From NCBI RefSeq assembly GCF_000212735.1, contig NC_015510.1, forward strand, positions 2,692,315 to 2,756,314: DNA of 64,000 nucleotides. Direction: 5' to 3'. The notes under the pieces are model-generated. The model was given only the letters and a program-made list of their open reading frames with translations, did no database searches and was not told where the DNA came from. Source of the stretch: Haliscomenobacter hydrossis DSM 1100 (GTDB lineage: Bacteria > Bacteroidota > Bacteroidia > Chitinophagales > Saprospiraceae). Positions 21,289 through 44,767 of the stretch are shown in pieces (position 1 is the stretch's first letter; every line of letters starts with the position of its first letter). Made by a program: the position numbers and the translations under genes.

Positions 21289-21375
21289 TTAGCGGGGGCC
21301 GATGATGTCGACGTTGATGATGCCCTTTCTGGATGGCATGACAGTACCATTCAGTTGAATGCCAATAGCTTTCAT
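21289..21375 (-). CDS. Tiny peptide A1 (28 aa, NVDIIGPR end)
   Basis: ATG at 21375, TAA at 21289-21291. The 28 residues align without gaps to tiny ORF A2 (24109-24195), with 16 identities: M1, A3, Q7, L8, G10, M13, S15, K17, G18, I19, N21, V22, D23, I25, G26 and P27. Both end in one basic residue after NVD[IV]IGP. It lies 39 bp upstream of the CxGSGxC gene. An upstream promoter-like pattern is at 21584-21641. No signal peptide or TM segment. Function unknown; candidates are a signalling peptide, a leader peptide or a small structural partner. Confidence 0.6.
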   Translation of the reverse strand: MKAIGIQLNGTVMPSRKGIINVDIIGPR

Positions 21376-21583
21376 CTGTATTAAATTTTAAGGTGAACAA
21401 ATAGCGTAAAATGACCTCCTGAAATCAAGATACATTCGGGCATACCCATACCGGTACAGGTGCTGTGTTGAGTAGCACTTGTGCTCAATGGTACAACCGA
21501 CTTTTGAAAAGTGATTAGGCGATTGTGTGTCGTGCAGCTGAGTTTTTGGGAAGTGCTTGCGTTGGTAGTTTTCTTTGATATTG

Positions 21584-21641
21584 TAAAAGTAGATGAAAGA
21601 AAGTCTAAAGGCGAGACAGTTTTGGGGGTTTACATACCCCC
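21584..21641 (-). promoter_or_regulatory. Promoter-like pattern upstream of tiny peptide A1
   Basis: On the minus strand: GGGGGTATGTA, 11 bp, CTGTCT, 22 bp, TACTTTTA. This is the same architecture as at 21947 and 24364 but with a weaker middle box and one base less spacing. It lies about 200 bp upstream of A1. Confidence 0.45.
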
Positions 21642-21694
21642 GTTTTTGCACAAAAAAATTTACAAATAAAGCATATGTTAATATTCGCATAAAA

Positions 21695-21746
21695 TAAAAA
21701 AGAAAGGGCTCTTCAACTTGAAGAACCCTTTCAAAATGCTAATAAC
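21695..21746 (-). terminator. Hairpin with T tract and TGCTAATAAC motif (element E2)
   Basis: Arms AAGGGCTCTTCAA and TTGAAGAACCCTT followed on the minus strand by TTCTTTTTTATTTT: a good intrinsic terminator. The plus strand continues into AAAATGCTAATAAC, shared with elements at 21860 and 27447. Confidence 0.65.
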
Positions 21747-21859
21747 AGTGTAAGTTTTTGCAGAGGAATGCCCCCTAAGAACACGGTTAAAGAATTTCAT
21801 GAAAAAACCACTTAACTCTTTGTTATGATGTACATACCTCTGTGAGATATGATTCATTT

Positions 21860-21910
21860 AAAAAGAAGGCTTTTCAAATGAAAAGCCCTTATAAAGTGTC
21901 AATAACGTAT
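21860..21910 (-). terminator. Hairpin with T tract and GTGTCAATAAC motif (element E3)
   Basis: Arms GGCTTTTC and GAAAAGCC around AAAT, followed on the minus strand by TTCTTTTT. It sits about 60-80 bp downstream of the promoter-like pattern at 21947-22005, so promoter and terminator could define a transcript of about 80 nt. Confidence 0.6.
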
Positions 21911-21946
21911 TCAAAAATGAAACACACCAAAAAAATATTTACTATG

Positions 21947-22005
21947 TAAAGGTAGTTGCAAAGTATGGGTAAACCGAGGACAATTTATTGATTCTACATA
22001 CCCCC
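21947..22005 (-). promoter_or_regulatory. Promoter-like pattern downstream of TPR-like gene 1
   Basis: Minus strand: GGGGGTATGTA (22005-21995), 11 bp, TTGTCC (21983-21978), 23 bp, TACCTTTA (21954-21947). Spacing is identical to that at 24364-24422. The last box resembles the Bacteroidota -7 consensus TAnnTTTG. Confidence 0.6.
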
Positions 22006-22010
22006 GAGAA

Positions 22011-22080
22011 TGGGTGTGGGTGTGAGTGTGGGTGTGAGTGTGGTTTGAGTGTGGTTTGAGTGTGGCGTGAGGTGTGTGGG
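22011..22080. repeat. GT-rich low-complexity block
   Basis: Imperfect repeats of GTGTGGGTGTGA, then TGTGGTTTGAG, directly after the stop of the TPR-like gene. A similar GTGTGA-rich stretch forms the loop of the inverted repeat at 63436-63568. Confidence 0.7.
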
Positions 22081-22083
22081 CGA

Positions 22084-23592
22084 TTACTCAAGACAATTTA
22101 GAGCATACTCCCAGAGTTTTTCGTAGGGCAATACTTCAATTTCAAAAGTTTGATTGGCCATTTCAATGGGGAGGGCCATCAATGCCTGGAAATCAGGCGC
22201 TGCTTTTTGTAGGATGTCGGCCTTACGAAAAGATGATTTAGGGATTTGCAGCAACATTTTCAGGAAATAATTGCAACGCAGCACCACTCCATCCTGGAGG
22301 TAACGCATGCGGTATTTGTCCAGCGCCTCTACTCTATCAATCAATTCATCGTACTGATGGTTGGCAATGTTGAACAGGATTTCCAGAAAAATCAAATGAA
22401 TGTTCATCCCCTGTTTGTCCATGTAAAAAACTTGCAACTCGTTAAAAAATTTATTCAAGCGGAATTTTCGTTTTTTGGAAATGCCACTTTCAGCCGTATC
22501 CAAGGCTTTAATTTGCACCAAAAAATGCAGGTACGCCTCCGAAATCTTCCAAATTCCCTGGATGTTTTCGGGCAGGTCGGCAAATTGTTGGTGCTGCATG
22601 ACCATATACAAGATGGCCTGACTTTGCAGGTAATTCCCTTCATGCATGTGCAGCATAAAGTTAAGTTCATAGGTTTTGAACCAATTGAAGTTGCCGTTGT
22701 CGGAATATTTCAAACATTCCTCGGTGGCTTGTTTAGCCAGGTCAAATTCGCGCAACTGCACATGACAAATTGCTTTTTGGTAATAAAAAACTTGGAGAGG
22801 AATGGCGGCAGTATACTCCTTTTGTTCAAAAAATGCGATGGCGCGGTCACACACATCAATGAGGCTTGGGTAGTCATTGATGCTGGAATAAATGGCCGCT
22901 TCGACTAAGTGAGCACAGAGGTGAAGTTGGTACGAATTATAGGTTTTTAGGGTGGGTTCAATTTCGGCATAATACTCCTGGGCTTTGGCTTGAATGTCCG
23001 CTTTGGGTGCTCTACTGTTGACGAATCCAATGCTCAACTCAATGTAATAATGCTCTGCTTTATTCTCCAGTATCCATAGTTTTTCATAGGTCATTAGCTC
23101 TTGATGGTACTGTTGATATTTTGCATAATCACCATCCATGGTACCGTGGTACAAACGCAGGGTATGACAGATGTCTACGTTGAGTTCGGTGAACTCGTAT
23201 TTGCGGGAAATTTTAAGCAACTTGCGGGCAATGCCTACCGCTGCATTGCGGGCGTTTTTACCGAAGAGTATTTTGGCAGCAGCCCATTCTTTATAACATT
23301 CATAAAATGCTTTTTGCCGATTGGTGTATGAAGCTTGTTTCAAATCAATCAGGAAAAGAGAATTCACCAGACGGTCTTTGAGGTTTTTGCGCAATTTTTG
23401 ATAAACAGGTGCGTCTTTACTGGCCCCATATAATCGGCTTGCCGCAGTGTCATCGTCTTGAAATTGGCCTTCAGCAATATGGGTGTAAAAATCCTGGAGC
23501 TTTGATGTGCCGGGGCGGCTATCGTTCATTAGTTCTACTTCACGAAGTTTTGGCTTCGTAATAATATGTATAAGGTCGATCAAATCTTTCAT
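22084..23592 (-). CDS. TPR-like helical protein of about 500 aa, paralogue 1
   Basis: 502 aa, ATG at 23592. No signal peptide or TM segment, so probably cytoplasmic. The sequence is rich in amphipathic helices typical of TPR-like solenoids. Paralogous to genes at 24436 and 42743: all share the MK[DE]L start, a basic Y-KLRK-LKDRLV segment near residue 80, a KAFYECYKEWAAAKILFGKNA block near residue 110, CDRAIAFF-E-KEY near 250, and the closing I-PYEKLWE. No DNA-binding domain is seen. Downstream come tiny peptide A1, the CxGSGxC gene and giant 1. Function unknown; a regulatory or scaffold role is inference from context. Confidence 0.8.
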   Translation of the reverse strand: MKDLIDLIHIITKPKLREVELMNDSRPGTSKLQDFYTHIAEGQFQDDDTAASRLYGASKDAPVYQKLRKNLKDRLVNSLFLIDLKQASYTNRQKAFYECYKEWAAAKILFGKNARNAAVGIARKLLKISRKYEFTELNVDICHTLRLYHGTMDGDYAKYQQYHQELMTYEKLWILENKAEHYYIELSIGFVNSRAPKADIQAKAQEYYAEIEPTLKTYNSYQLHLCAHLVEAAIYSSINDYPSLIDVCDRAIAFFEQKEYTAAIPLQVFYYQKAICHVQLREFDLAKQATEECLKYSDNGNFNWFKTYELNFMLHMHEGNYLQSQAILYMVMQHQQFADLPENIQGIWKISEAYLHFLVQIKALDTAESGISKKRKFRLNKFFNELQVFYMDKQGMNIHLIFLEILFNIANHQYDELIDRVEALDKYRMRYLQDGVVLRCNYFLKMLLQIPKSSFRKADILQKAAPDFQALMALPIEMANQTFEIEVLPYEKLWEYALNCLE

Positions 23593-23645
23593 GTTTCGTA
23601 GTTACAGCGTTGGAGGATAAGAAGACCGTATCCATCTTAAAAAAT

Positions 23646-23839
23646 CCTTAAGCTCAACCTGGATTAGACACGATGAAAAAATAAATTTACATTTTTACTG
23701 AACTCTTTATTTGATTTTGCTGCGTTACTCGTCAGTTGCGTAGTTCACTATGCGCCTTCCTCGCGCCTGGCCAAATCAAAAAATAGCCGAGTCAAAATGT
23801 AAATTTATTTCCTCATCGTGCCTTAAGTTGAGCTTAAGG
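23646..23839. repeat. Long imperfect inverted repeat (about 190 bp)
   Basis: Outer arms CCTTAAGCTCAACC and TTGAGCTTAAGG, then CACGATGA and TCATCGTG, then AAATAAATTTACATTTT and its complement, then TGATTTTG and CCAAATCA, around a GC-richer loop with TGCGTTACTCGTCAGTTGCG and CTTCCTCGCGCCTGG. It resembles a dispersed palindromic intergenic element and lies directly upstream of the TPR-like gene 1 start. Confidence 0.75.
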
Positions 23840-23901
23840 ACAACATTCAGTATTCAAGAAAGTGCAGTACAAGGTAAAGTGCTTGAGCATTCTATTGAGC
23901 G

Positions 23902-24108: not shown

Positions 24109-24195
24109 CTACTTAGGGCCAATAACGTCAACATTTGTAATTCCTTTGTTTGACAGCATAGCACGACCGCTAAGCTGAAGGCTGTGAGCATTCAT
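24109..24195 (-). CDS. Tiny peptide A2 (28 aa, NVDVIGPK end)
   Basis: ATG at 24195, TAG at 24109-24111. Same length as A1 with 16 of 28 identical residues and no gaps; the conserved end is KGI-x-NVD-[IV]-IGP-[RK]. Third-codon positions differ more than the protein, as expected for a translated sequence. A promoter-like pattern lies at 24364-24422, immediately after TPR-like gene 2. No signal peptide. Confidence 0.6.
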   Translation of the reverse strand: MNAHSLQLSGRAMLSNKGITNVDVIGPK

Positions 24196-24363: not shown

Positions 24364-24422
24364 CAAATGTACTTCTGATCAACTGCAGACCCAAGGACAA
24401 TATTTTAATTTTACATACCCCC
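24364..24422 (-). promoter_or_regulatory. Promoter-like pattern for tiny peptide A2
   Basis: Minus strand: GGGGGTATGTA (24422-24412), 11 bp, TTGTCC (24400-24395), 23 bp, TACATTTG (24371-24364), the last an exact match to the Bacteroidota -7 box TAnnTTTG. It lies between the TPR-like gene 2 stop (24436) and A2, predicting a leader of about 160 nt. Confidence 0.65.
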
Positions 24423-24435: not shown

Positions 24436-25971
24436 TTAAGCTCGGCTGGTTGAAACCTCCGTGGCATTGAGCAGCATTTGCCATAATTTTTCATAAGGAA
24501 TGATCTCAATTTCATGGGCTTGATTCGCTACTTCGATGGGCAACTCATGGAGTGCTGCGAGGTAATGCTCTGTTTTTGCGATGATTGATTCCCTTTTGAA
24601 TCCATTTTTAGGAAACAGGAGCAGCATCTTTAAAAAAATATTGGTGCGCTTCAGTTGTGCCTCCCGCAAGTACCGCATGCGGTATTTATCAATGGCCTCC
24701 AAACGATCCAAAAATGCATCATCACGTTTCTTTTTCGCAATGGCAAAAAGGAGTTCGACGATCAGGATGGGGATGTTCATGCCTTGTTTATCTTTGGAAA
24801 ATGTTCTGGTCTCATTGAAAAATTTAGCGAGTCGAAAGCTTCCATTTTTATAAGATTCATCCTTCCCCCGAGGCAACAAACCCATACTTTCCACGAAATG
24901 AACATACGCCTCGAAAATCCTCCATGATTCCTGAATGTTTTCGGGTAAACTCATGAATTGCGGGTGGCTCAAAATGGTGCCTATTACTTTTTCCGCTTGC
25001 GCAAATTCGCTGTTGTGCATATAGACGAGGAAGTACAGTTCATATAGTTTGAACCAATTGAAAGTCCCTTCCTCCAGGTATTTCAGACACACATTTGCCG
25101 TCTGAATGGCCTGATCAAACTGACGGAGTTGGAAATAACAGATGAGCTTCTCGTAATGGAAGATGTGTAGTGAAATATTGGCAATGAATTCTTTTTTTTC
25201 AAAAAAGGCGATGGCTCGATCACATACATTAATGGTTTGCATATATTCGTTGACGCTGGTATAAATGGCCACCTGGATCAAGTTGCCATAAAGATGTAAC
25301 TGGTAGGAGTCATATCGGTCAAGTGCGCTGCTCAATTGGAGGTAGGAAGCCTTGGCCATCTCCTGAAAGTCTGTTTTAGTCGATTTGCTGTTGATAAAGT
25401 TAATGATGAGGATAATGTACAATTCTTCAGCACGGTTTTCTTCCATCCAAAGTTGACTTGCCAAATTGAATTCCTCATTGTATTGATGAAATTTTTTGAT
25501 GTCCCCCTCAATCGTTCCATAATAGAGCCGTAATGCATGGCAAATGTCTACGACAAGCTCGGTAAATTCATATTTCCGGGCAATCTTTAAGATCTTCTTG
25601 CAAAGACCCGTAGCCACGGTTCGGGCATTTTTTCCAAAGAGTATTTTAGCTGCTGCCCATTCTTTGTAACATTCGTAATAGGCTTTCTGTCGATCAGTGT
25701 AAGTAGCGGCTTTGAGGTCGATAATGAATAGAGAATTGACCAGGCGATCCTTGAGCGTTTTGCGCAGCTTTTGGTAACCGGGATCATTTTTGTCTTTGGC
25801 GTAAAAATAATGCGCTGCTTCGTCGTCGTCTTTAAAACGCCCTTCCAACAGCAGGTCATAAAACTGTTGGAGTTTGGATGATGATTTGTTACTAGACGAT
25901 GCTCCGACCAGCTCAACAGCACGCAGTTTTGTCTTGGTGACAATAAGGGACAGTTCCAAGAGGTCTTTCAT
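24436..25971 (-). CDS. TPR-like helical protein of about 500 aa, paralogue 2
   Basis: 511 aa, ATG at 25969-25971. Closest to paralogue 1: both have the LKDRLVNSLF-IDLK block, YECYKEWAAAKILFGKNAR, TELVVDICHALRLYYGTI, VCDRAIAFFEKKEF, SLPENIQ, DKQGMNI and PYEKLWQ. No signal peptide, no DNA-binding domain. An A2 tiny peptide follows 240 bp downstream. Upstream lies a near-perfect palindrome (25998-26074) and a truncated TPR sensor gene, so this gene probably has its own promoter in or next to that palindrome. Function unknown. Confidence 0.8.
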   Translation of the reverse strand: MKDLLELSLIVTKTKLRAVELVGASSSNKSSSKLQQFYDLLLEGRFKDDDEAAHYFYAKDKNDPGYQKLRKTLKDRLVNSLFIIDLKAATYTDRQKAYYECYKEWAAAKILFGKNARTVATGLCKKILKIARKYEFTELVVDICHALRLYYGTIEGDIKKFHQYNEEFNLASQLWMEENRAEELYIILIINFINSKSTKTDFQEMAKASYLQLSSALDRYDSYQLHLYGNLIQVAIYTSVNEYMQTINVCDRAIAFFEKKEFIANISLHIFHYEKLICYFQLRQFDQAIQTANVCLKYLEEGTFNWFKLYELYFLVYMHNSEFAQAEKVIGTILSHPQFMSLPENIQESWRIFEAYVHFVESMGLLPRGKDESYKNGSFRLAKFFNETRTFSKDKQGMNIPILIVELLFAIAKKKRDDAFLDRLEAIDKYRMRYLREAQLKRTNIFLKMLLLFPKNGFKRESIIAKTEHYLAALHELPIEVANQAHEIEIIPYEKLWQMLLNATEVSTSRA

Positions 25972-26076: not shown

Positions 26077-27366
26077 TCAATTACCGGTTCCCAAAACCAA
26101 AACAAATACAATCAATACCAGCATAGAACGATCTTGCTCCTGCCGTTGTCCAAAAACGGCTTGCTCGACTTGCAGTTGTGCTTCACTTTCTTCCTCCAAA
26201 AAATCGATCAGGTTGTCTAGCCGATGGCGCTCTTTGTTGTTTTTAAGGGCTATGGCAGAATCCAAAAGCACTTCGGCCTGTTTGCTATAGGAATAGGCTT
26301 GTTCCCATTGTTGGGTCAATGCATAATATTCTGACCACAAGCGCACATAACTGGTTTCGTATTGAATGGGTGGCGAAAGTTTTTTGGCGTATTCCAAAAA
26401 ATAATAAGCTTTTGGAGCATTTTTTTGCAGGATGGCAATTTTACCCAGTAGTTGCGCCGCACGTGAAGCATTATCAAAATCACCATAGGTTTCGCTTGCT
26501 TTGAGGTCGTGCATGACCAAAGTATTGGCATGTTCCAACTGCCCCTGGTTGCTGTAGATCCAGCCCTGGTTGCCTTTCATGATGCCCACCCAGACCTCTA
26601 TTTTATTGCGCTGAGCAAGGGCTATCCCTTTTTCAAAAATGCGGATGGCTTCCTCTTCACGGTTTAAATGCATGAGGTTGACGCCCCAATTGTTGTAATT
26701 GTAAATTTTCTCCAGCGTATCTGAAAAAAGGCCTGTTTTAAGCGCGCGTTGAAAACAGGCATTACCTTCTGGTCTTTTACCAGACGAGATGTAACAGTCG
26801 CCAATTCTTCTTAAATAATTGCTAATGTGGGGAATTTGATGTGCTGTTTTTTGATCTGTACACGAATTCTCGGCTTTTCGGGCCAGGAGGTAAGCTTTTT
26901 CGGGTAAATGCAGTTTTGCGTACAACCAGGCCATTTTGAGCGATACATCCACTTGTTGATCGATGTCTTTTCGTTCTTTGGCGTATTCTATGGCCCGGTT
27001 GTAATGAAATAAGGCATTCAGTTGCATGGATGGATTTGCATCGTACAAGTCCCCGGCCAATTCATAACAAGCGCTGAGGTATTTAGCGTTTTGTTCGTTG
27101 TGGGCATTGTTCATGCCAATCGTTACCGCATAAGTGATGTCACTGTTTTTCAGCTGCTTTTGAATTTTTTGAATGTCCAGAAAAAACCGTTCCACCAGAC
27201 TGGGGGTGCCTGATGTTGGCATGGATTGCCAAATGCTGTCTACTACACTCGATTGTGCAACCGCTACCTGGCTGACAAAAAACAAGGTGAAAATCAAAGC
27301 CGCTCTCTTGTTGAACAACTCACGCAAGCCTATATCTATCGAATAGTTAATAACTATAAGATTCAT
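26077..27366 (-). CDS. TPR sensor-like protein, C-terminally truncated after its TM helix
   Basis: 429 aa. The N-terminal hydrophobic segment KRAALIFTLFFVSQVAVAQ is a signal peptide preceded by an 18-residue leader. TPR-like repeats follow (about 95-370, including NWGVNLMHLNREEEAIRIFEKG), then a coiled-coil-like stretch and a TM helix (MLVLIVFVLVLG) that reaches the stop only three residues later. Bacteroidota proteins of this layout usually continue into a coiled coil plus a LuxR-type HTH or histidine-kinase domain, which is absent. The stop lies at the edge of a 77-bp palindrome, suggesting truncation by insertion or deletion. Confidence 0.7.
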   Translation of the reverse strand: MNLIVINYSIDIGLRELFNKRAALIFTLFFVSQVAVAQSSVVDSIWQSMPTSGTPSLVERFFLDIQKIQKQLKNSDITYAVTIGMNNAHNEQNAKYLSACYELAGDLYDANPSMQLNALFHYNRAIEYAKERKDIDQQVDVSLKMAWLYAKLHLPEKAYLLARKAENSCTDQKTAHQIPHISNYLRRIGDCYISSGKRPEGNACFQRALKTGLFSDTLEKIYNYNNWGVNLMHLNREEEAIRIFEKGIALAQRNKIEVWVGIMKGNQGWIYSNQGQLEHANTLVMHDLKASETYGDFDNASRAAQLLGKIAILQKNAPKAYYFLEYAKKLSPPIQYETSYVRLWSEYYALTQQWEQAYSYSKQAEVLLDSAIALKNNKERHRLDNLIDFLEEESEAQLQVEQAVFGQRQEQDRSMLVLIVFVLVLGTGN

Positions 27367-36500: not shown

Positions 36501-39500
36501 TTTCCATCGAATACACCCGCGTCGTCGTCGGGAGCACCATCGCGTTCAGCGTCGGCACATTTACCCAGGCGCAGCACATCGTTCAGTACGTGAACGGGGC
36601 CATTTTCGGCCATGGTCGTGTTGAAGTCTTCGCCTTGTGGTTTTTCAGGTAAATCGCCATAATCCAGACCAGCAAAGCCAAAGTCGTGGGTTTGATCAGT
36701 TTGGTTATCAGGGAAAGTACCTACTACGTTAGGCGTATCCTCTAAACCATTCTCACCAGTAGGCAAGTTGGTTACATCCACAATCGTCAAGGTCTCCATC
36801 ACCATGGTCAGATCCATTCCGGTGATGCTGCCGTCGCTGTCGATTACATTCACCGTGTTGCCAGCAACATTGGCGCGGGTTGGCGTCATGTCTTCCGGTG
36901 TCGGTACGATGATTTTGTAGTTGCCGGGGATCAAACCACAAACATAGTATTCACCATTGGCGTCGGTAGTGGTCAAGAAGGAGCGGTTGTCGCCAGTACT
37001 TGCGATGCTGCCATCTTCACCAGCCCATTGTACTGTTACTTCACGGCCAGGGATGCCGGGCTCACCGGTGTCCTGACGACCGTTGAAGTTGGTGTCATTC
37101 CAAACCAGGTTGCCAATTTTGCCCAGTGGCAATTTGTAATCTTCAATTTCACCGAAAGGAATGGGTGCTACTTGGAAATTGGGGGACAAGCCACCGTTAG
37201 CGCTCAAGCGGAAACGCACCATGGCGTTACCAGCGGCAAAGGTAGCATTGGCAGGAACCTGGAAGCAGAAGCGCTGTGTGCTCATGCCCCCGATGGGGAT
37301 AGCACCACCACCAGTCAGGAAGTTTACGGCTTCACCAGGGCTAAAGGTACCACTGCCATCCCAGTCTACCCACATTTGTAGTACGGCTGCACTACCCGTA
37401 TTGTTCATGGCCGTAACCTCGATACAAGCTTCATATCCAGGAACCATTGGCGTGAGGAAACGGATGCCGTCTTCGTCGTCACCATTGGTGCAAGTACCAA
37501 ATACGACTGGGCCTACATTGCCGTCGTCGCCAGCTCCCATTGAGCCTGCCATTGGGTCGGGGTTGCCTGTAAGATCGGCATCCACACAAGTACCCAATTT
37601 CAAATCTTCAGAAATGATGTGCTTGGGTGCGTTTGGATCAACCGTTACGTAAGTATTGGGCAAATCGCCATAATCAAAGCCGGCGATTTGTACCATGTAG
37701 TCTTCCACTTCCCCACTTTGAGCAGGGCCATTGGGCGACATGGGTTCATCGGCATCAGCCAAGCGCATGCGCAAACCAAGATCCTGTCCCAATACTGCGG
37801 ATAGCGGCACTGGAATTGGTACGTTAACTGTAGTTGCCCCATCAGGAACGTTTACAAAGAACATTTCACCAGCGCCAAAGTCGCCATTCTTATTAAAGTC
37901 GATGTATACTGTCAATTTAGCATCCTGTTCGGTCATGTTCATCACGGGCACCACCAAGGTAGTCGTTTGAGTCACGATGAACAGTGGCAGGTTGTTTACA
38001 TCCAGGCCATTTTCGTCATTTGCGCTGCCAGCAGGGATGGAATTGTTGTCGTCACCACCAGCAGTTTTGCCAGCATCTACCGAAGGTTGGCCCTCCAGTT
38101 CATCATCTACGGATGCACCAATTTTCAGGATTACCTCATCACCGGCTGCATTGGTCGTCAGTTTATGCCGTGGACCATTGTCACTGGTTAAAGTGCGATG
38201 GTCGGCGGGAATGCCCGGTGTGGCAGGGTTGCCAGAAGTATTGGCCAGAGCATCGTTCAAATCGCCATAGTCGAAGGCCATTACCGTAGCCACGTAATCT
38301 TCTACTTCACCATCAGGCAGTGGGCCGTCTGGAGACATTACCGTATTAAAAGTAGGATCGGTACTGATCCGGAAACGAATCCCAATCGGGCGATTCAGTA
38401 CCGCTCCAGGAGGAGGAGTAACGTCGTTCAGGGTTACACTCGTTGCCGCATCTGCTACAGTAACCGAGTACATTTCGTTGGCATCATTGAAATCACCATC
38501 ACTGTTCCAGTCAAAGAAACCCACCAGTTTAGCTGGGTTTCCGGTCATGTTCATCACTGGAATCACCAGGTCTTCAGCCTGGTTGCGGATAAACATGGGT
38601 AAAGTCACGCCGTTTTCGTCGTCACCAGCGTCGTAATCGCCAGGGCCGTCCGCTTCGGTGTCGTCACCGGTAGCAGTAGCATTGGGATTGCCATTGCTGT
38701 CGTAGTCTACACTAGTGCCTAGTTTCAAAACAGAACCTAAGCGATGAGAGGGGCCGTTATCGGCAACGGTAGTATGGTAAGGTGCAGGTAAGTCGCCATA
38801 ATCGACTGGAATAAAACCAAAGTCGAAGGTGTGGTCATTTTGTCCATAATCCGCCGTATTTGCAGTGATTTCAGCAATGCCGGCGTTTAAGCTGGCGTCG
38901 TTGTCACTGAAATTGGGCAAACCAGCTCCACCAACATTAGAGGCGGTCAGCAACATCCGTTGCAGTGGTGTACCATTGACTCCCCCGTTGTTGTACTGAG
39001 TACCGGGGATACGAATGGTATAGGTTGCATTGGGTCGCAAACCATCCTCGCCTGCTAAATTGACATTACCATCGTTGAAATAGTAGTTGCCATTGGCATT
39101 GGTGGTCGTTTGAGCCACCATAACGTTGCCGAAAAAGAGCTGCACGGTCACTCCCTGGATGCCTCTTTCGTCACCATCCTGAACGCCGTCGCCGTCTTTA
39201 TCGGCCCAGACGAGGTTACCAATTTCCAGAGGAGCTACGGCACCACTCAATTCCACGTCACCCAGGCCATTGGCTTTGCTTGGAGTTGCATCGTCATCGA
39301 TGCCTGGATCCGTGGTGAAGCGGTCGTCGGTTACCTCGTAAGCCGAGCCAGGTACTTGTGCTCCAGTGGTGTTGTTGAGGCGGATAGTACCTCCAGAACG
39401 AATCCGAATGGGGTCAAGCCAAACGGCAATCGCATCTCCACCACCCGGCAATACGGCCAAGGGACCTTGAACCGATTCGCTGTGGATCAGGTTGTCGTTG

Positions 39501-41455
39501 TAATAATCGGCAGTTCCTGAACGCGTGACTATGCTGTATTCACAACCATTTGGCGTTTCGGTAACATTGGCCCGCAACAATTCACCAGCCGTTGAATATT
39601 CATAATCACGGGTTACCCCATTAAAATCATTGTTGTTGATGGCGTATTGATGGCCTTTGCGGTCCAACAAACCAATCAACATACTGCCCGAATCATCAAA
39701 TTCGATGTCGGCAATGATGGGTTCTGCTACCTCGCGCTGGTCGCCCGTAAAATGGCGGGATGGATGCGCGGGATTGGTGCTATAGCCCCAGGGAATCCAG
39801 GGGCGTTCCCGTCCGTAGTTGAAGCTAAAATCGAGTAGCGGTGTGGGGGTAAACGTACCCGCTCCACTTGGGGAAAACTCAAATACATAGCCCCTCAATT
39901 GAGCACCGTTGCCATTGACAGTGATGTCACTTACCACGTCTCCATTGATGTCTTGCCCGCTGAGCACTAAACCCACGAACAATTTACCCCGGTAAAACTT
40001 CAAACCCCAGGGGCGGTGTTCTCCCGCTTGAGGGTCACCAATGCCCGGATCTGGAATAGCCCAACTGCGCACATCATTTACGGTAGTTGGTGCAGTTGGA
40101 TTTAAAGGGTCACCCAAATCAATCTCGTAAAGTCGGCGGTCGTACAGGTTCACGATGTATAAAAACCGGCCATCATCCGAAATGTCGATGTCACCAATGG
40201 ACACCTTACCCACCTGGTCACCTGCCGCAAGGTCAGTACTGGGATCAAATGGAGTAAGGTTCAAATTCCTTTCTGCATTGGTGCCGATTACCGAACTAAC
40301 CGGACTGGTATTGTTGCCGGGATTGGCTGGATAACTACCCGATCCACGGGTGGGAATACCAATCGCATCTAAATCCAGAAAATTAACAGTTGGGGAATTT
40401 GGTGCATAAGGATCCACCATATAGATTCCTCCTGAGCCCAAGGGACCAAAGGCAGTGTGGCGGCGCATTACTGCCGAAGTAAAAATCTTTTGAGCCTGTC
40501 GGGAAAAAGCTACCCCATACAAGGCACCAACCTCTTCATAGGTCGAAAGAACAGTAGGATTAGGAGCTCCCGTACTGTTGGAGTGGGAAGTGGGAATACC
40601 ACTATCCAAAAACTTATACGTCACCAAACCTGCAGCGTTTCTGATGTCCGAATTGCCAGCGACGTTATCCCCAAAGAAATAACAAGGCAAAAACACATCG
40701 GGGTTGTTGGTTTCTACCCACTGGCCGGGGTAGTTGATGGCAAAATTGATGTTGCCTTGTTGGCCTGTGATAAACTGCACACTGGAGCCATACACGACAC
40801 CAGCTACACTGGTGTAATCTACTGGATTGGCCAGATTGCATTCATGTGATACGGGAATTTCAAATTCAACCCGCAGTTTTTCACCAGGATTAGCCGCGCG
40901 GCCACTGGTTACGGAGAGCGCAAAATTATAGCCTCCATTCGCTCCGGTTACCGTTGTTCCGATCAGTTGATCGGTTGCTGGCAAGGTAGCGTTGGCGTAC
41001 AATTTAACGACTATGCCTTCTACCCCAGGTTCTGCGCCCGTTTGAAGACCATCGCCGTTAAAGTCGCGAAAGGCCGTACCCGATTGGGCCTGAAGGCCTC
41101 CTGCAAAGAGACTGAATAAAACAACAATAGCCCCACCCCAAAAAGTCAATCGTGACTTTGCTGTGGTGAAGCGGTGCAACAATGCTGGGTTATCCTCAAA
41201 ATCGTGCTCATTTTTTTCACTAGAACCGTATTGTCGTCTTTGTTCCGTCAAGTGGCGCGAATGACTCCGAGGAGCCTCACCTAGCCACAATGGATGGAAC
41301 CACTGATCATTGGTAACCCCGCGCACAGCAGTGTTCATGGTCCGACTTTGCGGCACATGCCCAGGGTTCCATGGGGAAAAAGTGTGCAACAAAAAGTGGA
41401 ACATTTCCACCATTTGTCTTGCTGCCCACTCAACAAGTTTTGTAGATTTTTTCAT
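27581..41455 (-). CDS. Giant 2: SdrD-B / GEVED / dockerin-like surface protein with T9SS sorting domain
   Basis: 4,624 aa from ATG at 41455. The signal peptide is internal: hydrophobic LTFWGGAIVVLFSLFAGG at about 103-120 and a likely cut after LQAQ (124), preceded by a 100-residue charged extension. Modules in order: SdrD-B-like domain (about 125-220), a beta-propeller-like region (about 200-650), then five alternating SdrD-B units ([IV]GNL[VA]WxD) and six GEVED-type units (GEVEDY or GEIEDY; DYGDLP before each) to about residue 2600, long Ig/HYR-like modules rich in Cys to about 4200, a carboxypeptidase-regulatory-like domain, a dockerin-like pair (DVNNSKTISTLDMIQIRKLI, about 4282-4338), a cohesin-like region and a type A T9SS sorting domain (NTPNPFADETSI to MVLLNK). 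Its last third is paralogous to giant 3. Probable cell-surface adhesin or matrix protein. Confidence 0.85.
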   Translation of the reverse strand: MKKSTKLVEWAARQMVEMFHFLLHTFSPWNPGHVPQSRTMNTAVRGVTNDQWFHPLWLGEAPRSHSRHLTEQRRQYGSSEKNEHDFEDNPALLHRFTTAKSRLTFWGGAIVVLFSLFAGGLQAQSGTAFRDFNGDGLQTGAEPGVEGIVVKLYANATLPATDQLIGTTVTGANGGYNFALSVTSGRAANPGEKLRVEFEIPVSHECNLANPVDYTSVAGVVYGSSVQFITGQQGNINFAINYPGQWVETNNPDVFLPCYFFGDNVAGNSDIRNAAGLVTYKFLDSGIPTSHSNSTGAPNPTVLSTYEEVGALYGVAFSRQAQKIFTSAVMRRHTAFGPLGSGGIYMVDPYAPNSPTVNFLDLDAIGIPTRGSGSYPANPGNNTSPVSSVIGTNAERNLNLTPFDPSTDLAAGDQVGKVSIGDIDISDDGRFLYIVNLYDRRLYEIDLGDPLNPTAPTTVNDVRSWAIPDPGIGDPQAGEHRPWGLKFYRGKLFVGLVLSGQDINGDVVSDITVNGNGAQLRGYVFEFSPSGAGTFTPTPLLDFSFNYGRERPWIPWGYSTNPAHPSRHFTGDQREVAEPIIADIEFDDSGSMLIGLLDRKGHQYAINNNDFNGVTRDYEYSTAGELLRANVTETPNGCEYSIVTRSGTADYYNDNLIHSESVQGPLAVLPGGGDAIAVWLDPIRIRSGGTIRLNNTTGAQVPGSAYEVTDDRFTTDPGIDDDATPSKANGLGDVELSGAVAPLEIGNLVWADKDGDGVQDGDERGIQGVTVQLFFGNVMVAQTTTNANGNYYFNDGNVNLAGEDGLRPNATYTIRIPGTQYNNGGVNGTPLQRMLLTASNVGGAGLPNFSDNDASLNAGIAEITANTADYGQNDHTFDFGFIPVDYGDLPAPYHTTVADNGPSHRLGSVLKLGTSVDYDSNGNPNATATGDDTEADGPGDYDAGDDENGVTLPMFIRNQAEDLVIPVMNMTGNPAKLVGFFDWNSDGDFNDANEMYSVTVADAATSVTLNDVTPPPGAVLNRPIGIRFRISTDPTFNTVMSPDGPLPDGEVEDYVATVMAFDYGDLNDALANTSGNPATPGIPADHRTLTSDNGPRHKLTTNAAGDEVILKIGASVDDELEGQPSVDAGKTAGGDDNNSIPAGSANDENGLDVNNLPLFIVTQTTTLVVPVMNMTEQDAKLTVYIDFNKNGDFGAGEMFFVNVPDGATTVNVPIPVPLSAVLGQDLGLRMRLADADEPMSPNGPAQSGEVEDYMVQIAGFDYGDLPNTYVTVDPNAPKHIISEDLKLGTCVDADLTGNPDPMAGSMGAGDDGNVGPVVFGTCTNGDDEDGIRFLTPMVPGYEACIEVTAMNNTGSAAVLQMWVDWDGSGTFSPGEAVNFLTGGGAIPIGGMSTQRFCFQVPANATFAAGNAMVRFRLSANGGLSPNFQVAPIPFGEIEDYKLPLGKIGNLVWNDTNFNGRQDTGEPGIPGREVTVQWAGEDGSIASTGDNRSFLTTTDANGEYYVCGLIPGNYKIIVPTPEDMTPTRANVAGNTVNVIDSDGSITGMDLTMVMETLTIVDVTNLPTGENGLEDTPNVVGTFPDNQTDQTHDFGFAGLDYGDLPEKPQGEDFNTTMAENGPVHVLNDVLRLGKCADAERDGAPDDDAGVFDGKDGDQGNGDDGTDSAFNEAEECDDDEDGIRFITPLVPGFDACIEVTYTAPVGGAVLQAWIDFNGNGQLEAGEQVSFVGGGTLAAGTNQVVNLCFKVPFNAVFNDGTAFVRVRLSPTGGLTADGPAKFDETTIVPQGEVEDYMVKLAKVGNLVWEDRNWNGQQDDLEEDLGINNVVVALVYAGANGTVETSLSNASFPLTAVGDDRIYYDTTSNYTYTDASTKPGFYYFCGLIEGTYDVVVLGPKDLTPTRPNLVTNAQDEDKDSDGLETARNLTTQRTLSHSGPFTIADQEAICELAEGEEGIGDQDLSNLLDVNKVGTFPDDQTDQRFDFGFTPLDFGDLPQETDRPGVAYNTTIAENGPRHIVKPEFFLGMGVDAELDGNPDDEAGSKAYGNDQGDDATDTDPNSWKQGMGTDDGDGIRFMTPLIPGYEACIEIKYALPDNFNGPDGYLNAWIDYNGNGVLDAGEKLAWTKLNGTAAPIEANTGALELEKVYMTQGAGKVIVCFKVPADAKYFEGDMFARFRLSENPRLGPDGILAAELNYPNGRIPCGEVEDYYMPLSKVGNLVWEDRDYDGIQDINEPVIANVPIKLEYAGPDGIFGTNDLEYIYHDTTDVNGRYYFCGLIGNLDPSGVAKPTYRLIVSDPAGMTATFNNPDPSDDACVKNNSNGDDLLIDDRITRDTFAIMDPMAMCTTEAHPNGINDQTTINGFPDGQYDETRDFGYVGFDYGDLPVAGTSYLTLRDSVSALFANKFGPRHAIQPKLYLGEGVDGELNGQPDADAGSKNGGDDDAQGKFKKGLTTDDESGVRLLSPMIPGELAYIKVTYTAQDTAANAGNPSATGYVNKDAYLRAFIDFNGDGDLNDASDLLTFTAVGASQATLANIAANNNPLMPGGVNQMQVFAFRVPLDAVYRDGTAFMRYRLSWEANVGPDNNAYHTTTSPYVNTALAYPRGEVEDYSVPVAKVGNLAWFDHDVKGDQNENDYVDTLQLVLVWGGLEETTGKFDTVGYQSTMGSAGSVTDVLYNLSIAPHLTPTMPPAGNDTPGQIVRTNAQGRYSFQGLIPGTYYLIPLKYLQGDSASFVNAWPRHRVLTLKDNPGVNDQNDSDAMPGALIRINDGNVREPEVCVTPQPKNEAGNSDAADATAMNAMHPTGHPFPDSLYNQTIDFGWVDEPNIEANLDIVGVNYPTSQICGNFNVIMHLCFKNPQEVPLDSLQSFLNLKDAYGNALFTATKPKVSIIDSSYVTSPAGVKVKKSMSSAIAALKVNPAYDGNTDTRLLLPLQENSSFYLPGDSIVCVRVEFEIDPTKTDKYPWSSQGSVTARAIGFNKATGAKRPLTDYFVKSPRFGKTIVVSDLTDEIDDPMNMAGLNYPDGGDGIAFEGMVADRGFNGTYNAPFSAPNVTGRDKYLDQNDKTIQNDECWIKTKWNSGVRDVNIRLDENCEALVTADLLVPNHDDACGFDKYPEGSYYRVIIIDKKTERTIWSSAWRTPFDATPWLGRELIYEVKSVANHCNPLWGKLNFEDKSMPVVTCPVNTYKKLPGGTYTFVCTDVDSIMNVKRSWTDADYAYYTGLATATDNCGNPVLDKVSDVLTVFADCADQAANNYYYAQIARTFYFRDEFGNVGHCTQYIYFKRPTIVLPVCKVEVPANLAAGDIALKPIDLVSKKYELYESVPYFYNGAGQRVYLTGKDYCGFAVNYTDQSVFNTGDCGRKIIRRWSIIDWCYGTGNAYPDYLIANGDCYNGVTWNNHIYSWDQLIIVGDASAPVVKVKDIDHDKYIGTGYADAPKASPTKDNLAKGYDAGDVIEFSTGPMNCEASFLFTKDHFIVEEASKWSFNIVVLERKPIFDLDKLPTGAYEMKTPLGVKVIGDSEKGYSVTGLPMLKDSSRAYFIQVTVANVCYGSTTILVPIRIADRIAPVMVCDDKLVITRDNAGTAKVSAADVDEGSSDNCGALIWRKIRRPIGDCEASFMRLPRFVDANGNGKIDAYDPSSTKPQDYIDENRNKVADELEYFHISTAGALMSPLMDSIPFFCCDPASVMVELWGQDWMGNRSFCWNNITLEDKTPLGCIAPWEISVLCTDKNLAFIDDKVQSAKLFGDVVISSGGICVIADTTYSVVKRLKCGAGTIERIWTLTKQTAHGPVVTTCRQIIRVLPVREYDIYFPVDVDQRDCKTPVIDTAVIKEWGCDLLAVNVSDKRYDASDDECYKIFRTYTVIDWCAYDDRCGDPMAEGSVFVVQRSLWENYGKKPIYVLVRDRDRDQDEEFWLSKDPTTNNADDIYVRGDADFGGVTRAGTTAVSSSYMPKCNDAFLDNPYGLPVGEYYHSFMYTQIIKVYDEVAPVVTGIRDTFCTSATSCTASITKLVTIVDNCTDQVELEQRQLMIAPNQTVDAGSMILYSATRWSVKELGNGQFEITVTGLPEGIHDLIVVGRDECGNLSAATRIPFVVQDCKAPAPICINGLSTELMPDGNRGGMMAVWAKDFVASPIYDCNGQGPETKDGLKVITKYSINRVGEVANPNQTSMTFSCTDAGKRVLVELHAWDERGNHDFCITFIDIQDNRQVCTPGSGSNFGEISGLITTDDLEPVLGASIEISGGAQMNQNTSATGGFSFSNLIKGNDFTVAAQMDKEHLNGVSTFDLVLLQKHILGTQAITSPYRLIAADVNNSKTISTLDMIQIRKLILNLDNKFNNVPSWKFVDASYKFANATNPWSDSFPEVVNINDLTGKVKADFVAIKMGDVNGNASATGAVATEIRGGKDMILIAEEQQLNAGQTYAVAIRAKDLSKLQGFQFTLQVAEQAEIVGLEYGVMKAEHFGLFQNEGTITSSFHSTTSLADDAVLFTLKLKANATTLLSKVLDINSRMTHEEAYNQNDEVMGVVLSFGHAAIDDRAVLRQNTPNPFADETSIGFYLPQATRAKLTIRDVKGALIYQVEGNYTKGNNQVILKQEQLRASGVMYYTLQTNDFTDTKKMVLLNK

Positions 41456-41618
41456 GAGAAACAATTAGTTAAAAATTATAAGGTACTTAATGCTTATACA
41501 CATTTTGGACTGGTAGTAAGGCCACATCTGCTACATACCAGCCACCTACTCAAGAGCAAGACTCGAGGTCAGGCAAGCCAGGTAGCAACAGGATCGCAAA
41601 TGAAGCCATTGACAAGGT
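41456..41618 (-). other. Leader region between tiny peptide B1 and giant 2
   Basis: Non-coding as far as I can see. The 19 bases ending at the giant 2 start (41442-41460) reappear inverted at the gene's 3' end (27563-27581). It contains TGGCTGG...CCAGTCC half-sites but no convincing terminator, so B1 and giant 2 may share a transcript. Confidence 0.4.
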
Positions 41619-41696
41619 TTACACCACGGTGGTATCTACGGTAATTACTTTTGCAGCAATAGCATGCAGGGTGTGTTGAGTTGTTAGTGTTTGCAT
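41619..41696 (-). CDS. Tiny peptide B1 (25 aa, VITVDTTVV end)
   Basis: ATG at 41696, TAA at 41619. Same length as B2 (44690-44767); both start MQT and share T6 and the end VITVDTTV[VI], 12 of 25 identical. The leader just before the ATG is also shared (GTTAAG...CCACACTATGCAAACA). A T9 tract and -7-like box lie upstream at 41740-41779. It is the closest gene upstream of giant 2. No signal peptide. Function unknown. Confidence 0.6.
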   Translation of the reverse strand: MQTLTTQHTLHAIAAKVITVDTTVV

Positions 41697-42012: not shown

Positions 42013-42423
42013 TTAAAAAACGATATGCAACCAATTTCCCCTCCGCACGAGAGGATACTCCCCGGCGGGGATAAAATATTCTAGAATACCCAATTTCCGT
42101 GCAAAATAATTTGGCAAAGCAAAAGCTTCTTCCAGGATGAAAACATCTCTGTTGAATACCTCTGAGGCTAAAACATCTGGAAGATCTTCTTGATTGAGCC
42201 GAATTCCCAAGCGACCTTGGGAATTCACAAATAGGATAACCGCAATACGGCGTGAATGCGCCCGCAATCGCTTGGCTCCGGTTACTGTGTAAATTCTGCA
42301 CAGTCCAGATCCTTCGCAGCGCTTTCCCGGAGTACCAAAAACGATCTCGCTAAACAGTATTTTTACATTCTTCAACAGCTTGATCCTAGCCGTGAAGTTG
42401 CCCTTCATCAACGTCTTTGTCAT
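42013..42423 (-). CDS. CxGSGxC / IPxGEYP small protein, copy 2
   Basis: 136 aa, ATG at 42421-42423 (a second ATG five codons in is possible). Paralogue of 20809-21249, sharing EIVFGTPGKRCEGSGLC near the N-terminus, EEAFALPNYFA in the second half and IPAGEYPLV near the end. No signal peptide. The start lies only 11 bp after the stop of tiny peptide B3, so translational coupling is likely. TPR-like gene 3 is upstream and giant 2 downstream, the same order as around copy 1. Function unknown. Confidence 0.75.
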   Translation of the reverse strand: MTKTLMKGNFTARIKLLKNVKILFSEIVFGTPGKRCEGSGLCRIYTVTGAKRLRAHSRRIAVILFVNSQGRLGIRLNQEDLPDVLASEVFNRDVFILEEAFALPNYFARKLGILEYFIPAGEYPLVRRGNWLHIVF

Positions 42424-42434
42424 GGAATAGTGAA

Positions 42435-42527
42435 TTATACAACCGTAACGTCAACAGTAATAATGATCGAATACTGGAACAATGGTCCACATTGTTTACA
42501 GGCTCCATCACGGAGCCACGAATACAT
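42435..42527 (-). CDS. Tiny peptide B3 (30 aa, IITVDVTVV end)
   Basis: ATG at 42527, TAA at 42435; an in-frame ATG at 42563 would make 42 aa. The end IITVDVTVV matches B1 and B2 (VITVDTTV[VI]), while the first 20 residues differ and include CKQC. It lies between TPR-like gene 3 and the CxGSGxC gene, 11 bp before the latter, exactly the position of A1 in the other module. Promoter-like sequence at 42584-42624. Confidence 0.5.
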   Translation of the reverse strand: MYSWLRDGACKQCGPLFQYSIIITVDVTVV

Positions 42528-42583
42528 TCGTAGGCTCGATATGTTATTACTGCACCTCAGCATAAAGTGTTTTTTTGACAATA

Positions 42584-42624
42584 TAAAGTTACGGCAATCC
42601 CGGTGGGGAAGGCTAAAAAAAAAA
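42584..42624 (-). promoter_or_regulatory. Promoter-like pattern for tiny peptide B3
   Basis: Minus strand: ten T (42624-42615), 23 bp, TAACTTTA (42591-42584), a near match to TAnnTTTG. The T-tract to -7 spacing equals that of B1 and B2. It would favour the ATG at 42563 or 42527. Confidence 0.45.
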
Positions 42625-42742
42625 CAGCGTTTATTACCTTAAAAAGAGGGAAAAAGAGGGAGTAAAAAAGAGGGGAAAAACTGATTATCAACAACAAAAA
42701 CATTTTTTTTTGACACAAAACATTACGAAGTCAGGCTATTGA

Positions 42743-44245
42743 TTAGCCCAATTGGCGTTCTAACAATTGGTAAAGTTCTTCAAAAGGAATGATTTCAATT
42801 TCGTTGGTTTGGTTTGCTGCTTCCGTAGGAACAGCGCTCATTTTTTCCAGATAGGAGCGGGTTTTGGCCAAAAAAGTAGTTCGGTCAAAACCAGACAAAG
42901 GGATCTGCAACAAAATTTTGATGAAGTAATGACTGCGCAAAGTATGATCGTTACGCAAGTATTTGTAGGTGTACTGCTCCAGCGATTCTACTTTATCGAT
43001 AAAGCTGGATTTTTTGCCCTCCGAGAGCAACATCAACAATTGTGCCACCAAAATAGCAATATTCATACCTTTTTTGTCTTTGGAAAAAACGGGCGTCTCA
43101 TTTTGAAAACGGCTCAGTTTGAACTGTTTAAGACTATCATTGTATGAAGCTTGTATTTTTTCCAGGCGAATCAGGTAAGCCAGATAAGCAGCAAAAATTT
43201 TCCAGATCTCTTTTACATTATCTGGCAGGAGATTGAACCGTTTGTTTTTGATGACGCTGGTATAGATGTCATAAGCGGCCTGGTATTCGTCGGTATGCAT
43301 GGCCAGCAAAAAAATGGACTCCTGGTACTTAAACCAGTTGTAACTGCCTTCCGCTAACAACTTGCAGCAGTTTTCGGCAGCTTCACGGCCCTCCATAAAA
43401 TTCTTTAACTGAACGTGACAAAGCAATTCCTGGTAATACAGGATTTGCAGTGGCACATGCGCTTCGTAGTCTTTTTGTAAAAAGAACTGGATATACCGCT
43501 TGCACACTTTCAGTGCCTCAAGATAATTGTTGACGGAAGTATGGCAAGCCAACTCGATCAAGGCACCATAAAAATGCAATCGGTGCGAATTGTATTTCTC
43601 CAGAGCGGGTTGCAACTGATCGTGGAACAGCTTTGCTTTATCACGAATGTCTTCCTTGGTAGATTTATTGTTGACAAACCCAGAGCTTAAAATAATGTAA
43701 AATTCTTCGGCCCGATTTTCAAACTGATAAATCTCCTGGTATTCTCCGAAGAGTTTGTTGAATTCTTCGAAGCGGGCCATATCCCCCATCCGGGCACCGT
43801 AGTACAAGCGCAGTACACTACATATATCCATAGCCAATCCGCTAAAATCAAATTGCCGGGCTTGTCGCAACAACTTGGTAGCCAAGTCGGCAGCAGCATC
43901 ATTGGCATTTTGGCCCAACAATATTTTGGCAGCTGCCCATTCACGGTGACTGCGATAATAGGCTTTCTGGTAACTGTTGTACTTGTTGCTGTTGAACTTC
44001 AGCGTCAGGATGGTATCGACCAAACGCTCTTTTAAATCGGATTTCAATTTGCGGTAAGAAGAGTGTGAAGGTTCGCCCGGATAAAGGGCCTTGGCGGCAT
44101 TGTCGTCGGAGGTCCAACTGTTCTGAGAGATTCCTTTGTAAAAAATGGAGAGTTTTGATGAGGTACTAGCACTTCCGTTAAACATTGAGGTAGCCCCACA
44201 ACCATTGTTCTCCATTACAAGAACCAGTTCTCGTAATTCTTTCAT
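42743..44245 (-). CDS. TPR-like helical protein of about 500 aa, paralogue 3
   Basis: 500 aa from ATG at 44245 (MKELRELVLVMENNG). The frame opens three codons earlier at a GTG, but the ATG matches the MKDL start of both paralogues. More diverged than paralogues 1 and 2 yet colinear: YRKLKSDLKERLVDTILTLK, KAYYRSHREWAAAKILLGQNA, GLAMDICSVLRLYYGA, LLPDNVKEIWKIFAAY, KDKKGMNIAIL and the closing IEIIPFEELYQLL. No signal peptide, TM or HTH. It is followed by B3, the CxGSGxC gene, B1 and giant 2, and preceded by B2. Promoter-like pattern at 44287-44323. Function unknown. Confidence 0.8.
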   Translation of the reverse strand: MKELRELVLVMENNGCGATSMFNGSASTSSKLSIFYKGISQNSWTSDDNAAKALYPGEPSHSSYRKLKSDLKERLVDTILTLKFNSNKYNSYQKAYYRSHREWAAAKILLGQNANDAAADLATKLLRQARQFDFSGLAMDICSVLRLYYGARMGDMARFEEFNKLFGEYQEIYQFENRAEEFYIILSSGFVNNKSTKEDIRDKAKLFHDQLQPALEKYNSHRLHFYGALIELACHTSVNNYLEALKVCKRYIQFFLQKDYEAHVPLQILYYQELLCHVQLKNFMEGREAAENCCKLLAEGSYNWFKYQESIFLLAMHTDEYQAAYDIYTSVIKNKRFNLLPDNVKEIWKIFAAYLAYLIRLEKIQASYNDSLKQFKLSRFQNETPVFSKDKKGMNIAILVAQLLMLLSEGKKSSFIDKVESLEQYTYKYLRNDHTLRSHYFIKILLQIPLSGFDRTTFLAKTRSYLEKMSAVPTEAANQTNEIEIIPFEELYQLLERQLG

Positions 44246-44286
44246 GAGATTCACATTGTTATTAGCAAAGACACAAGATTACGCAC

Positions 44287-44323
44287 CAAATGTACTGTTG
44301 AATAGTTACAATTCATTGGACAA
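44287..44323 (-). promoter_or_regulatory. Promoter-like pattern for TPR-like gene 3
   Basis: Minus strand: TTGTCC (44323-44318), 23 bp, TACATTTG (44294-44287), 42 bp before the ATG. The spacing and both boxes are identical to those upstream of tiny peptide A2, but the GGGGGTATGTA box is missing. Confidence 0.6.
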
Positions 44324-44556
44324 TCATGCAGCAATTTTTTCTCAAAAAAGCATAATTTTTTTTGTAAAAAATCATTTAAAAAACTGGTTATCAAATTTTT
44401 AATAAATCTTTTTTTTGCCTAAAATAAATTGAAAAATTAGTGCCGAATTGTAGGGCACCGATGATTAATCAACAGGTAGAGTAATTTGATAAATGGTAAA
44501 CTTTTTGAAAATTTGATGGGCAGGATCTGAAAGATGAGATGAGGATAAACAAGCGA

Positions 44557-44576
44557 GCCGGGGTCATTCCCCCGGC
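44557..44576 (-). terminator. GC-rich hairpin downstream of tiny peptide B2
   Basis: Perfect 7-bp stem GCCGGGG/CCCCGGC with a 6-nt loop, about 115 bp after the B2 stop, followed on the minus strand by TCGCTTGTTTATCC. Weak T tract. Confidence 0.4.
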
Positions 44577-44689
44577 ATAAGTTTCAACCGCTTGAAAAAA
44601 AGAAACACACCAAAATATAATAACAAGTTCTTTAATTGATAGACTCAAAAGCTCTTTTTGCGAAAGACCGGTTAGAGGCCTGACCACAG

Positions 44690-44767
44690 TCAAATGACTG
44701 TGGTATCAACGGTAATCACTCTTCTGAGGAACCGTTGATGGGCTCGATTAGTAAACTGTGTTTGCAT
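44690..44767 (-). CDS. Tiny peptide B2 (25 aa, VITVDTTVI end)
   Basis: ATG at 44767, TGA at 44690. Matches B1 at MQT, T6 and VITVDTTV. The middle is basic (HQRFLRR). The final codons and stop form a perfect hairpin ACCACAGTCA-AA-TGACTGTGGT (44683-44704). Shared leader CGTTAAG..CCACACTATGCAAACA with B1. Lies between giant 3 and TPR-like gene 3. Function unknown. Confidence 0.6.
   Translation of the reverse strand: MQTQFTNRAHQRFLRRVITVDTTVI

Follow-up and report, generated by a model that had tools for sequence, protein, structure and literature searches.

What do five tiny open reading frames (ORFs) on the minus strand of the Haliscomenobacter hydrossis DSM 1100 genome encode, and do they encode anything at all? 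The question is raised by a stretch of 64,000 nucleotides (C1:2692315-2756314 of the 8.77-Mb genome, which consists of four contigs; hereafter the window), where two clusters hold these ORFs together with three paralogous tetratricopeptide repeat (TPR) proteins of 500-511 aa, two proteins with a CxGxGxC motif, and giant proteins. The ORFs had been singled out as a family of unannotated peptides in an original prediction made from the letters of the DNA. The analysis described here demonstrates that all five are real and under selection, and a link of their products to the TPR proteins is very probable. Moreover, we consider it rather probable that they are the precursors of short C-terminal signal peptides (roughly 9-12 residues), which would be read by the neighboring TPR proteins of about 500 residues.

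The five ORFs and their C-terminal core

At the predicted positions, all five reading frames are open. A1 (21289..21375, minus strand) and A2 (24109..24195, minus strand), with the cores KGIINVDIIGP and KGITNVDVIGP, respectively, are each 28 aa long and align without gaps, 16 of the 28 residues (57%) being identical. Likewise, B1 (41619..41696, minus strand; core KVITVDTTVV), which lies directly upstream of a giant protein gene, and B2 (44690..44767, minus strand; core RVITVDTTVI) are each 25 aa long. The fifth peptide, B3, ends in IITVDVTVV as predicted, but its start had been placed at 42527 (30 aa), while an ATG at 42563 is more probable because three homologues (L036, L037 and L038), when started at an ATG, give 42 residues that align without gaps and share this end. 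B3 (42435..42563, minus strand) is thus probably 42 aa long and ends in IIITVDVTVV; in L036-L038 the frame is open further upstream to an earlier ATG as well. The predicted similarity between the A and B peptides was also found, but not their division into separate groups, since the two form a single family with a common core. This C-terminal core is the conserved part of the peptides and reads approximately [KG]-[VI]-I-x-[VI]-D-x-x-G, with Ile at residue 3 in 38, Val or Ile at residue 5 in 42, Asp at residue 6 in 40 and Gly at residue 9 in 23 of 43 cores. It is short and strongly hydrophobic, has one fixed acidic residue and is without conserved blocks of Cys, Ser or Thr.

When the 567 ORFs in the window that start with ATG and span 16-75 aa were scored with a position-specific scoring matrix (PSSM) derived from 34 different cores found in other genomes, with close relatives kept in this training set, the five peptides occupied ranks 1-5 (28.6, 25.2, 23.7, 17.6 and 15.8 bits) and the sixth ORF reached 7.7 bits. 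The highest score in 20 windows generated by a first-order Markov model was 12.6 bits. A search of the whole genome with a 13-position core profile returned six matches at E<1. Four of these were A1, A2, B1 and B2, and the other two lie beyond the window (at about C1:2.673 and C1:2.293 Mb); all six are near a TPR paralogue. The next two matches had E values of about 2.5. Since B3 was missed and this genome had contributed 7 of the 34 profile rows, this search represents a test of specificity rather than of discovery. With an alignment of the five peptides as query, nothing beyond the five was found in this genome at E<1, and further members became visible only with the core-only profile.

Selection on the peptide, as originally proposed, was borne out by codon counts in which core and leader were compared. 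In the 10 pairs formed by five A-type peptides, the proportion of nonsynonymous differences (pN) in the core was 0.00-0.12 at a proportion of synonymous differences (pS) of 0.60-1.13, while the leaders showed a pN of 0.16-0.38 and a pS of 0.27-0.75; these and the following values were obtained with a simple Nei-Gojobori script and not with a likelihood model. Similarly, B1 and two relatives gave a pN of 0.05 and a pS of 0.49-0.61 in the core, compared to a pN of 0.46-0.49 and a pS of 0.48 in the leader. For the B3 type, in which L036-L038 were compared among themselves without B3 of the window, the core had a pN of 0 in all three pairs (pS 0.12-0.35), and the preceding sequence, including the part before the likely start, a pN of 0.03-0.29 and a pS of 0.09-0.36. 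B2 and its relative from the same genus (L203) differ by three replacements, all of them in the leader, and by two synonymous changes, both of them in the nine-residue core, and the ORF is 91% identical while its 120-nt flanks are 80% and 74% identical. The core codons are therefore free at synonymous sites and nearly fixed elsewhere while the leaders drift, which demonstrates selection on the core only. Since several synonymous codons are used for each common core residue (51 cores), a conserved DNA or RNA motif is unlikely.

Linkage to one group of TPR genes

Homologous tiny ORFs were found beside the same genes in other genomes, and the members that were compared are gapless in the core. 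The putative receptors in the window, all encoded on the minus strand, are TPR1 (22084..23592, 502 aa), TPR2 (24436..25971, 511 aa, 54% identity to TPR1) and TPR3 (42743..44245, about 500 aa from the ATG at 44245, 39% identity to TPR1). Altogether, this genome contains ten TPR paralogues. The TPR family is present in at least 120 of 150 genomes of the same taxonomic family (E up to 1e-20) and in 22 of 395 genomes sampled across the phylum (E up to 1e-10), 17 of these 22 belonging to other families. One TPR gene (L028), on a contig filed under a unicellular cyanobacterium, is 96% identical to that of L029 and is probably DNA of the Bacteroidota that ended up in this assembly.

The 2 kb around each of 88 TPR genes were searched for small ORFs with the core at their end. 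These genes comprised those of the window and some of the matches listed; L001-L016 were excluded as repeats of the own genome, and at least two pairs (L060/L080 and L064/L085) are overlapping copies. Above 14 bits, 53 such ORFs were found on the same strand as the TPR gene and none on the opposite strand, and above 11 bits the numbers were 56 and 2, out of 1351 and 1353 ORFs scored, respectively. The 53 matches correspond to 39 distinct cores and were themselves used for the refinement of the PSSM, so that the opposite strand and the run without the own genome constitute the fair controls. A core peptide above 11 bits within 2 kb was detected for 42 of the 88 TPR genes. Its position relative to the TPR gene is variable, from 85 to 1377 nt downstream, and some peptides lie upstream.

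The peptides are restricted to one part of the TPR family. In a tree of 85 of the 88 genes, which remained after a length and X filter (quick search, midpoint root, support by the Shimodaira-Hasegawa-like approximate likelihood ratio test [SH-aLRT] only), all 40 peptide-bearing genes fell into a single group of 53 (SH-aLRT 99), compared to none of the 32 genes outside it. Four of the 13 remaining genes in this group (L039, L073, L078 and L079) have weaker candidates by eye, and inspection by eye around some of the window-clade TPR genes yielded no convincing candidate. Moreover, the distances between TPR proteins and those between cores were correlated (rho 0.48, 42 genes, 0 of 2000 permutations), also after near-copies had been removed (rho 0.54, 35 of the 42 genes, 0 of 5000 permutations). 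Cores of peptides from the same locus were more alike (mean score 30.8, 9 pairs) than those from different loci (19.2, 894 pairs). Among 26 core-profile matches in seven other genomes (E up to 3), 12 were located in stretches with a TPR gene, five were small ORFs that are considered below, and the remaining nine contained no core ORF above 11 bits. In summary, a connection between the peptides and the TPR proteins is very probable.

A possible peptide signaling system

If the peptides act as signals, the precursor would be translated from its own small gene, after which the leader would be removed and the core would leave the cell, as suggested by double-glycine leaders on some members and by the hydrophobic leaders or tandem copies of peptides encoded next to related TPR genes. 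The core would then enter a cell and bind the groove of the TPR protein, a step to which the linkage, the co-divergence and the predicted fold point, and the receptor may finally alter the expression of adjacent genes, which, judged from their position, would be the peptide/CxGxGxC operon and the giant surface-type proteins.

The case for export comes from the leaders of relatives. A double-glycine leader precedes a window-type core in L122, where GG stands immediately before the core, and in both ORFs of L214, where it stands shortly before it, and the double-glycine peptides of L101 and L110, beside sister TPR genes, carry GG ahead of their C-termini. In this respect they resemble the double-glycine peptides that peptidase-containing ATP-binding cassette transporters (PCAT) of the C39-peptidase type export, whereas the five window peptides have no such leader, GG being present at the leader/core junction in none of them. 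Three C39-peptidase proteins are encoded in this genome. Divergently oriented small ORFs with a hydrophobic N-terminus were found beside TPR genes outside the window group at 12 of 32 loci of the same family and at 10 of 37 loci mostly from other families, the latter being a set of mixed families with possibly overlapping loci in which one of the ten (L133) resembles an unrelated membrane protein. The corresponding numbers were 0-2 in the three other orientations and 2 of 51 in the window group. C-termini of these divergent ORFs include IIIEDDLGV and NSDISGI, and in L132 a hydrophobic N-terminus of this type is joined to the end LLIVDLSVV.

Tandem copies occur as well. In f25, a different family of this phylum, small ORFs ending in motifs of the IDR type (IDRTED, IDRGEEN and similar) were present at 10 of 30 loci, two of which overlap and many of the rest of which are truncated. 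Here, three precursors divergent from TPR genes carry two or three copies of IDRGE.N (L139:900-1043, L141:3860-4021 and L163:3112-3207), and other ORFs combine a hydrophobic N-terminus with an IDR.ED end. Likewise, ORFs beside TPR genes of yet another genus (f9) join a hydrophobic N-terminus to six copies (L146:298-654 and L148:3350-3712) or one copy (L147:355-507) of GGW.GD, a motif that occurred in only two of 9531 ATG-start small ORFs, those of L146 and L147, while L148 requires a non-ATG start. Swapped leaders together with tandem copies form the pattern expected of exported signals. Two further loci were observed in this context. At L214:1345-1900 the two double-glycine core ORFs adjoin a 369-aa protein that has no match to the TPR profile and perhaps belongs to another receptor family. 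At L129:1406-1958 two ORFs near a TPR-family gene have leaders of the double-glycine type followed by repeated cysteine segments of the TGCGSG type and look like a different exported peptide.

The AlphaFold2 model of TPR1, based on 19 sequences, is all-helical (predicted local distance difference test 83.7, predicted template modeling score 0.75). In a Foldseek comparison with the PDB, the two top matches of this model were structures of AimR, the peptide receptor of phages, namely 9f36 (E 9.8e-4, TM 0.39/0.55), the sole match with an E value of 0.001 or less, and 6s7i (E 3.6e-3), while Rap and NprR appeared within the top 50. This result supports a TPR groove but not membership in the RRNPP group of peptide receptors. 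The N-terminal 112 residues, modeled alone, contain helices without a match to any known fold or helix-turn-helix domain (best E 1.1), and Pfam, NCBIfam and PHROGs assigned no function to the TPR or CxGxGxC proteins.

Streptococcal Rgg-SHP systems have very short precursors (about 22-28 aa) with a hydrophobic C-terminal core that contains an acidic residue. The peptides described here share both features, although the SHP leader is hydrophobic too whereas theirs is not, and no relation in sequence was demonstrated. More generally, the arrangement of a small gene with a conserved C-terminus adjoining a TPR-type gene, the presence of several such pairs in a genome, tandem copies in certain relatives (compare the Rap systems, for which the available parts of PMC11343458 describe tandem pheromone precursors), and a modeled C-terminal superhelix of the TPR type with AimR as its weakly best PDB match are all reminiscent of the RRNPP(A) systems (Rap, Rgg, NprR, PlcR, PrgX, AimR). 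However, the host here belongs to the Bacteroidota, as opposed to the Firmicutes and the phages and plasmids covered in the available parts of PMC10075063 and PMC9765709, the receptors of about 500 aa have no PDB sequence match and no recognized helix-turn-helix or three-helix N-terminal domain, and an export leader is absent from most peptides of the window clade. In the same parts of these sources, a detector for quorum sensing with TPR receptors is applied to Firmicutes and viruses (PMC10075063), the architecture and export signals of RRNPPA systems are treated in Firmicutes, and the Rgg and ComR propeptides are described as the more hydrophobic ones (PMC9765709). No such system of the Bacteroidota was found in the open-access literature searched, as far as its texts were available, most subscription papers and preprints lying outside that scope. 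TPR-linked peptide signaling, known mainly from Gram-positive bacteria, is probably present here in a Gram-negative bacterium. The best reading of these comparisons is a system that would work like the RRNPP quorum sensing of Gram-positive bacteria (Rgg-SHP, AimR-AimP) without necessarily being a member of RRNPP.

There is about an even chance that a broader proposal is correct, namely a pheromone system of the Bacteroidota with TPR receptors of about 500 aa, rapidly changing precursors in which leaders are swapped (double-glycine, hydrophobic or none recognizable) or signals repeated two to six times, a retained C-terminal signal and control of giant surface-type proteins, which would be independent of, or very distant from, the RRNPP systems of Firmicutes. 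If this holds true, a large Gram-negative phylum would have its own peptide language, with ten TPR paralogues in this genome, near giant surface-type genes, and with synthetic peptides of 9-12 residues and a receptor family both open to direct tests. As seen here, genes of 25-30 codons are easily overlooked.

Several observations weigh against a signaling function. The five window peptides carry, by eye, no recognizable export leader of the double-glycine or obviously hydrophobic kind, consistent with the original statement that they have no signal peptide; double-glycine leaders, hydrophobic leaders and tandem copies are mostly found on relatives, and the five double-glycine cases (L122, two in L214, L101 and L110) come from two genomes only, G014 and G055. 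Furthermore, for 46 of the 88 TPR genes no core peptide exceeded 11 bits within 2 kb, the core PSSM gave no core ORF above 8 bits at any of 28 TPR loci taken from across the phylum, and five of the 26 core matches mentioned above are small ORFs without a TPR gene in the stretch examined (L193, which is near a contig end, L203, for which this stretch was 3 kb, L208, L212, which is possibly due to chance, and L214). The co-divergence of TPR proteins and cores may result from common descent alone without any co-adaptation. The match to AimR is weak, the unrelated TPR proteins IFIT5, Ski and LGN scoring almost as high, and a profile of 19 TPR rows found no PDB sequence at E up to 1, the known receptors being too diverged for a decision. 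Because the N-terminal domain matches no known fold, DNA binding by the TPR proteins is unsupported.

The missing export leaders, together with the close spacing of A1 (39 nt) and B3 (11 nt) to a CxGxGxC gene, would fit peptides that stay inside the cell and bind the TPR or the co-encoded CxGxGxC proteins as small regulatory subunits, and selection on the C-terminus would then look identical. We regard such intracellular ligands as rather unlikely, since some members with the same core have double-glycine leaders and since hydrophobic leaders and tandem copies occur beside related TPR genes. The few double-glycine leaders and the three C39-peptidase proteins could instead indicate secreted modified peptides or bacteriocins (ribosomally synthesized and post-translationally modified peptides), for which the TPR protein would act as a regulator or as a partner in immunity. 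This is improbable given that names and Pfam matches of the recurrent neighbor clusters, of which representatives were annotated, revealed no peptide-modifying enzyme and that the core is so short and hydrophobic and devoid of conserved Cys, Ser or Thr blocks.

With B1 preceding the giant gene and A1 and B3 preceding CxGxGxC genes, translation of the tiny ORFs might also control the downstream gene in cis by attenuation. Such a role appears very improbable, because the position relative to the TPR genes varies widely, because freedom at synonymous sites indicates that the peptide and not the RNA is retained, and because divergence of the core tracks that of the TPR protein. Short ORFs are common in the window, as is evident from the number scored above; a chance origin with an artefactual resemblance is nevertheless hardly credible, as it is contradicted by the codon counts, the strand bias of the TPR linkage, the PSSM ranking and the whole-genome core search. 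Precursors of signal peptides remain the interpretation that we favor.

Neighboring genes and candidate regulatory sites

The two CxGxGxC proteins of the window, encoded on the minus strand downstream of A1 (20809..21249, 146 aa) and of B3 (42013..42423, 136 aa), are 30% identical to each other and belong to a family without a Pfam entry, in which G34, C40, G42, G44, C46 and G127 are invariant in 22 rows. A homologue was found near 36 of at most 97 TPR genes examined. Of 34 homologues, some of which are near-copies and nine of which lack the motif, 18 are preceded by a core peptide at a distance of up to 900 bp, and 16 of these peptides end 117-180 nt before the cysteine motif. Giant proteins of one broad cluster, which is widened by shared repeat domains, were present near 28 of at most 97 TPR genes. 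The giant proteins of the window contain SdrD_B and GEVED domains and weak matches to secretion tails, and the one downstream of B1 (27581..41464, minus strand, 4627 aa, SdrD_B and GEVED) is a candidate regulated target. The repeats of this ORF and of a second giant ORF (780-17291, 5503 aa) create numerous long antisense ORFs that probably do not represent genes.

Two copies of a pattern GGGGTATGTA...TGTCC are present in the genome, one between TPR2 and A2 (24395..24421, minus strand) and one between TPR1 and A1 (21978..22004, minus strand), compared to no occurrence of the reversed control pattern. A near-match with the end TGTCT is located upstream of A1 (21614..21640, minus strand), and similar sites were found in L025 (two) and L026 (three) among 15 sequences scanned. 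This pattern may be an operator. The motif TAnnTTTG is a -7 box of Bacteroidota promoters. It was modestly enriched, being present within 90 nt before 9 of 45 peptides, compared to 64 of 1220 other ORFs on the same strand and 59 of 1236 on the opposite strand, and composition shuffles (500) gave a mean of 2.0 and a maximum of 8. This enrichment was set aside, since the exact box precedes none of the five window peptides and the regions upstream of the peptides are more AT-rich. Finally, a 429-aa TPR protein that adjoins TPR2 (26077-27366) has a weak NCBIfam resemblance to the sensor kinase FimS (22.9 bits at a cut-off of 600).

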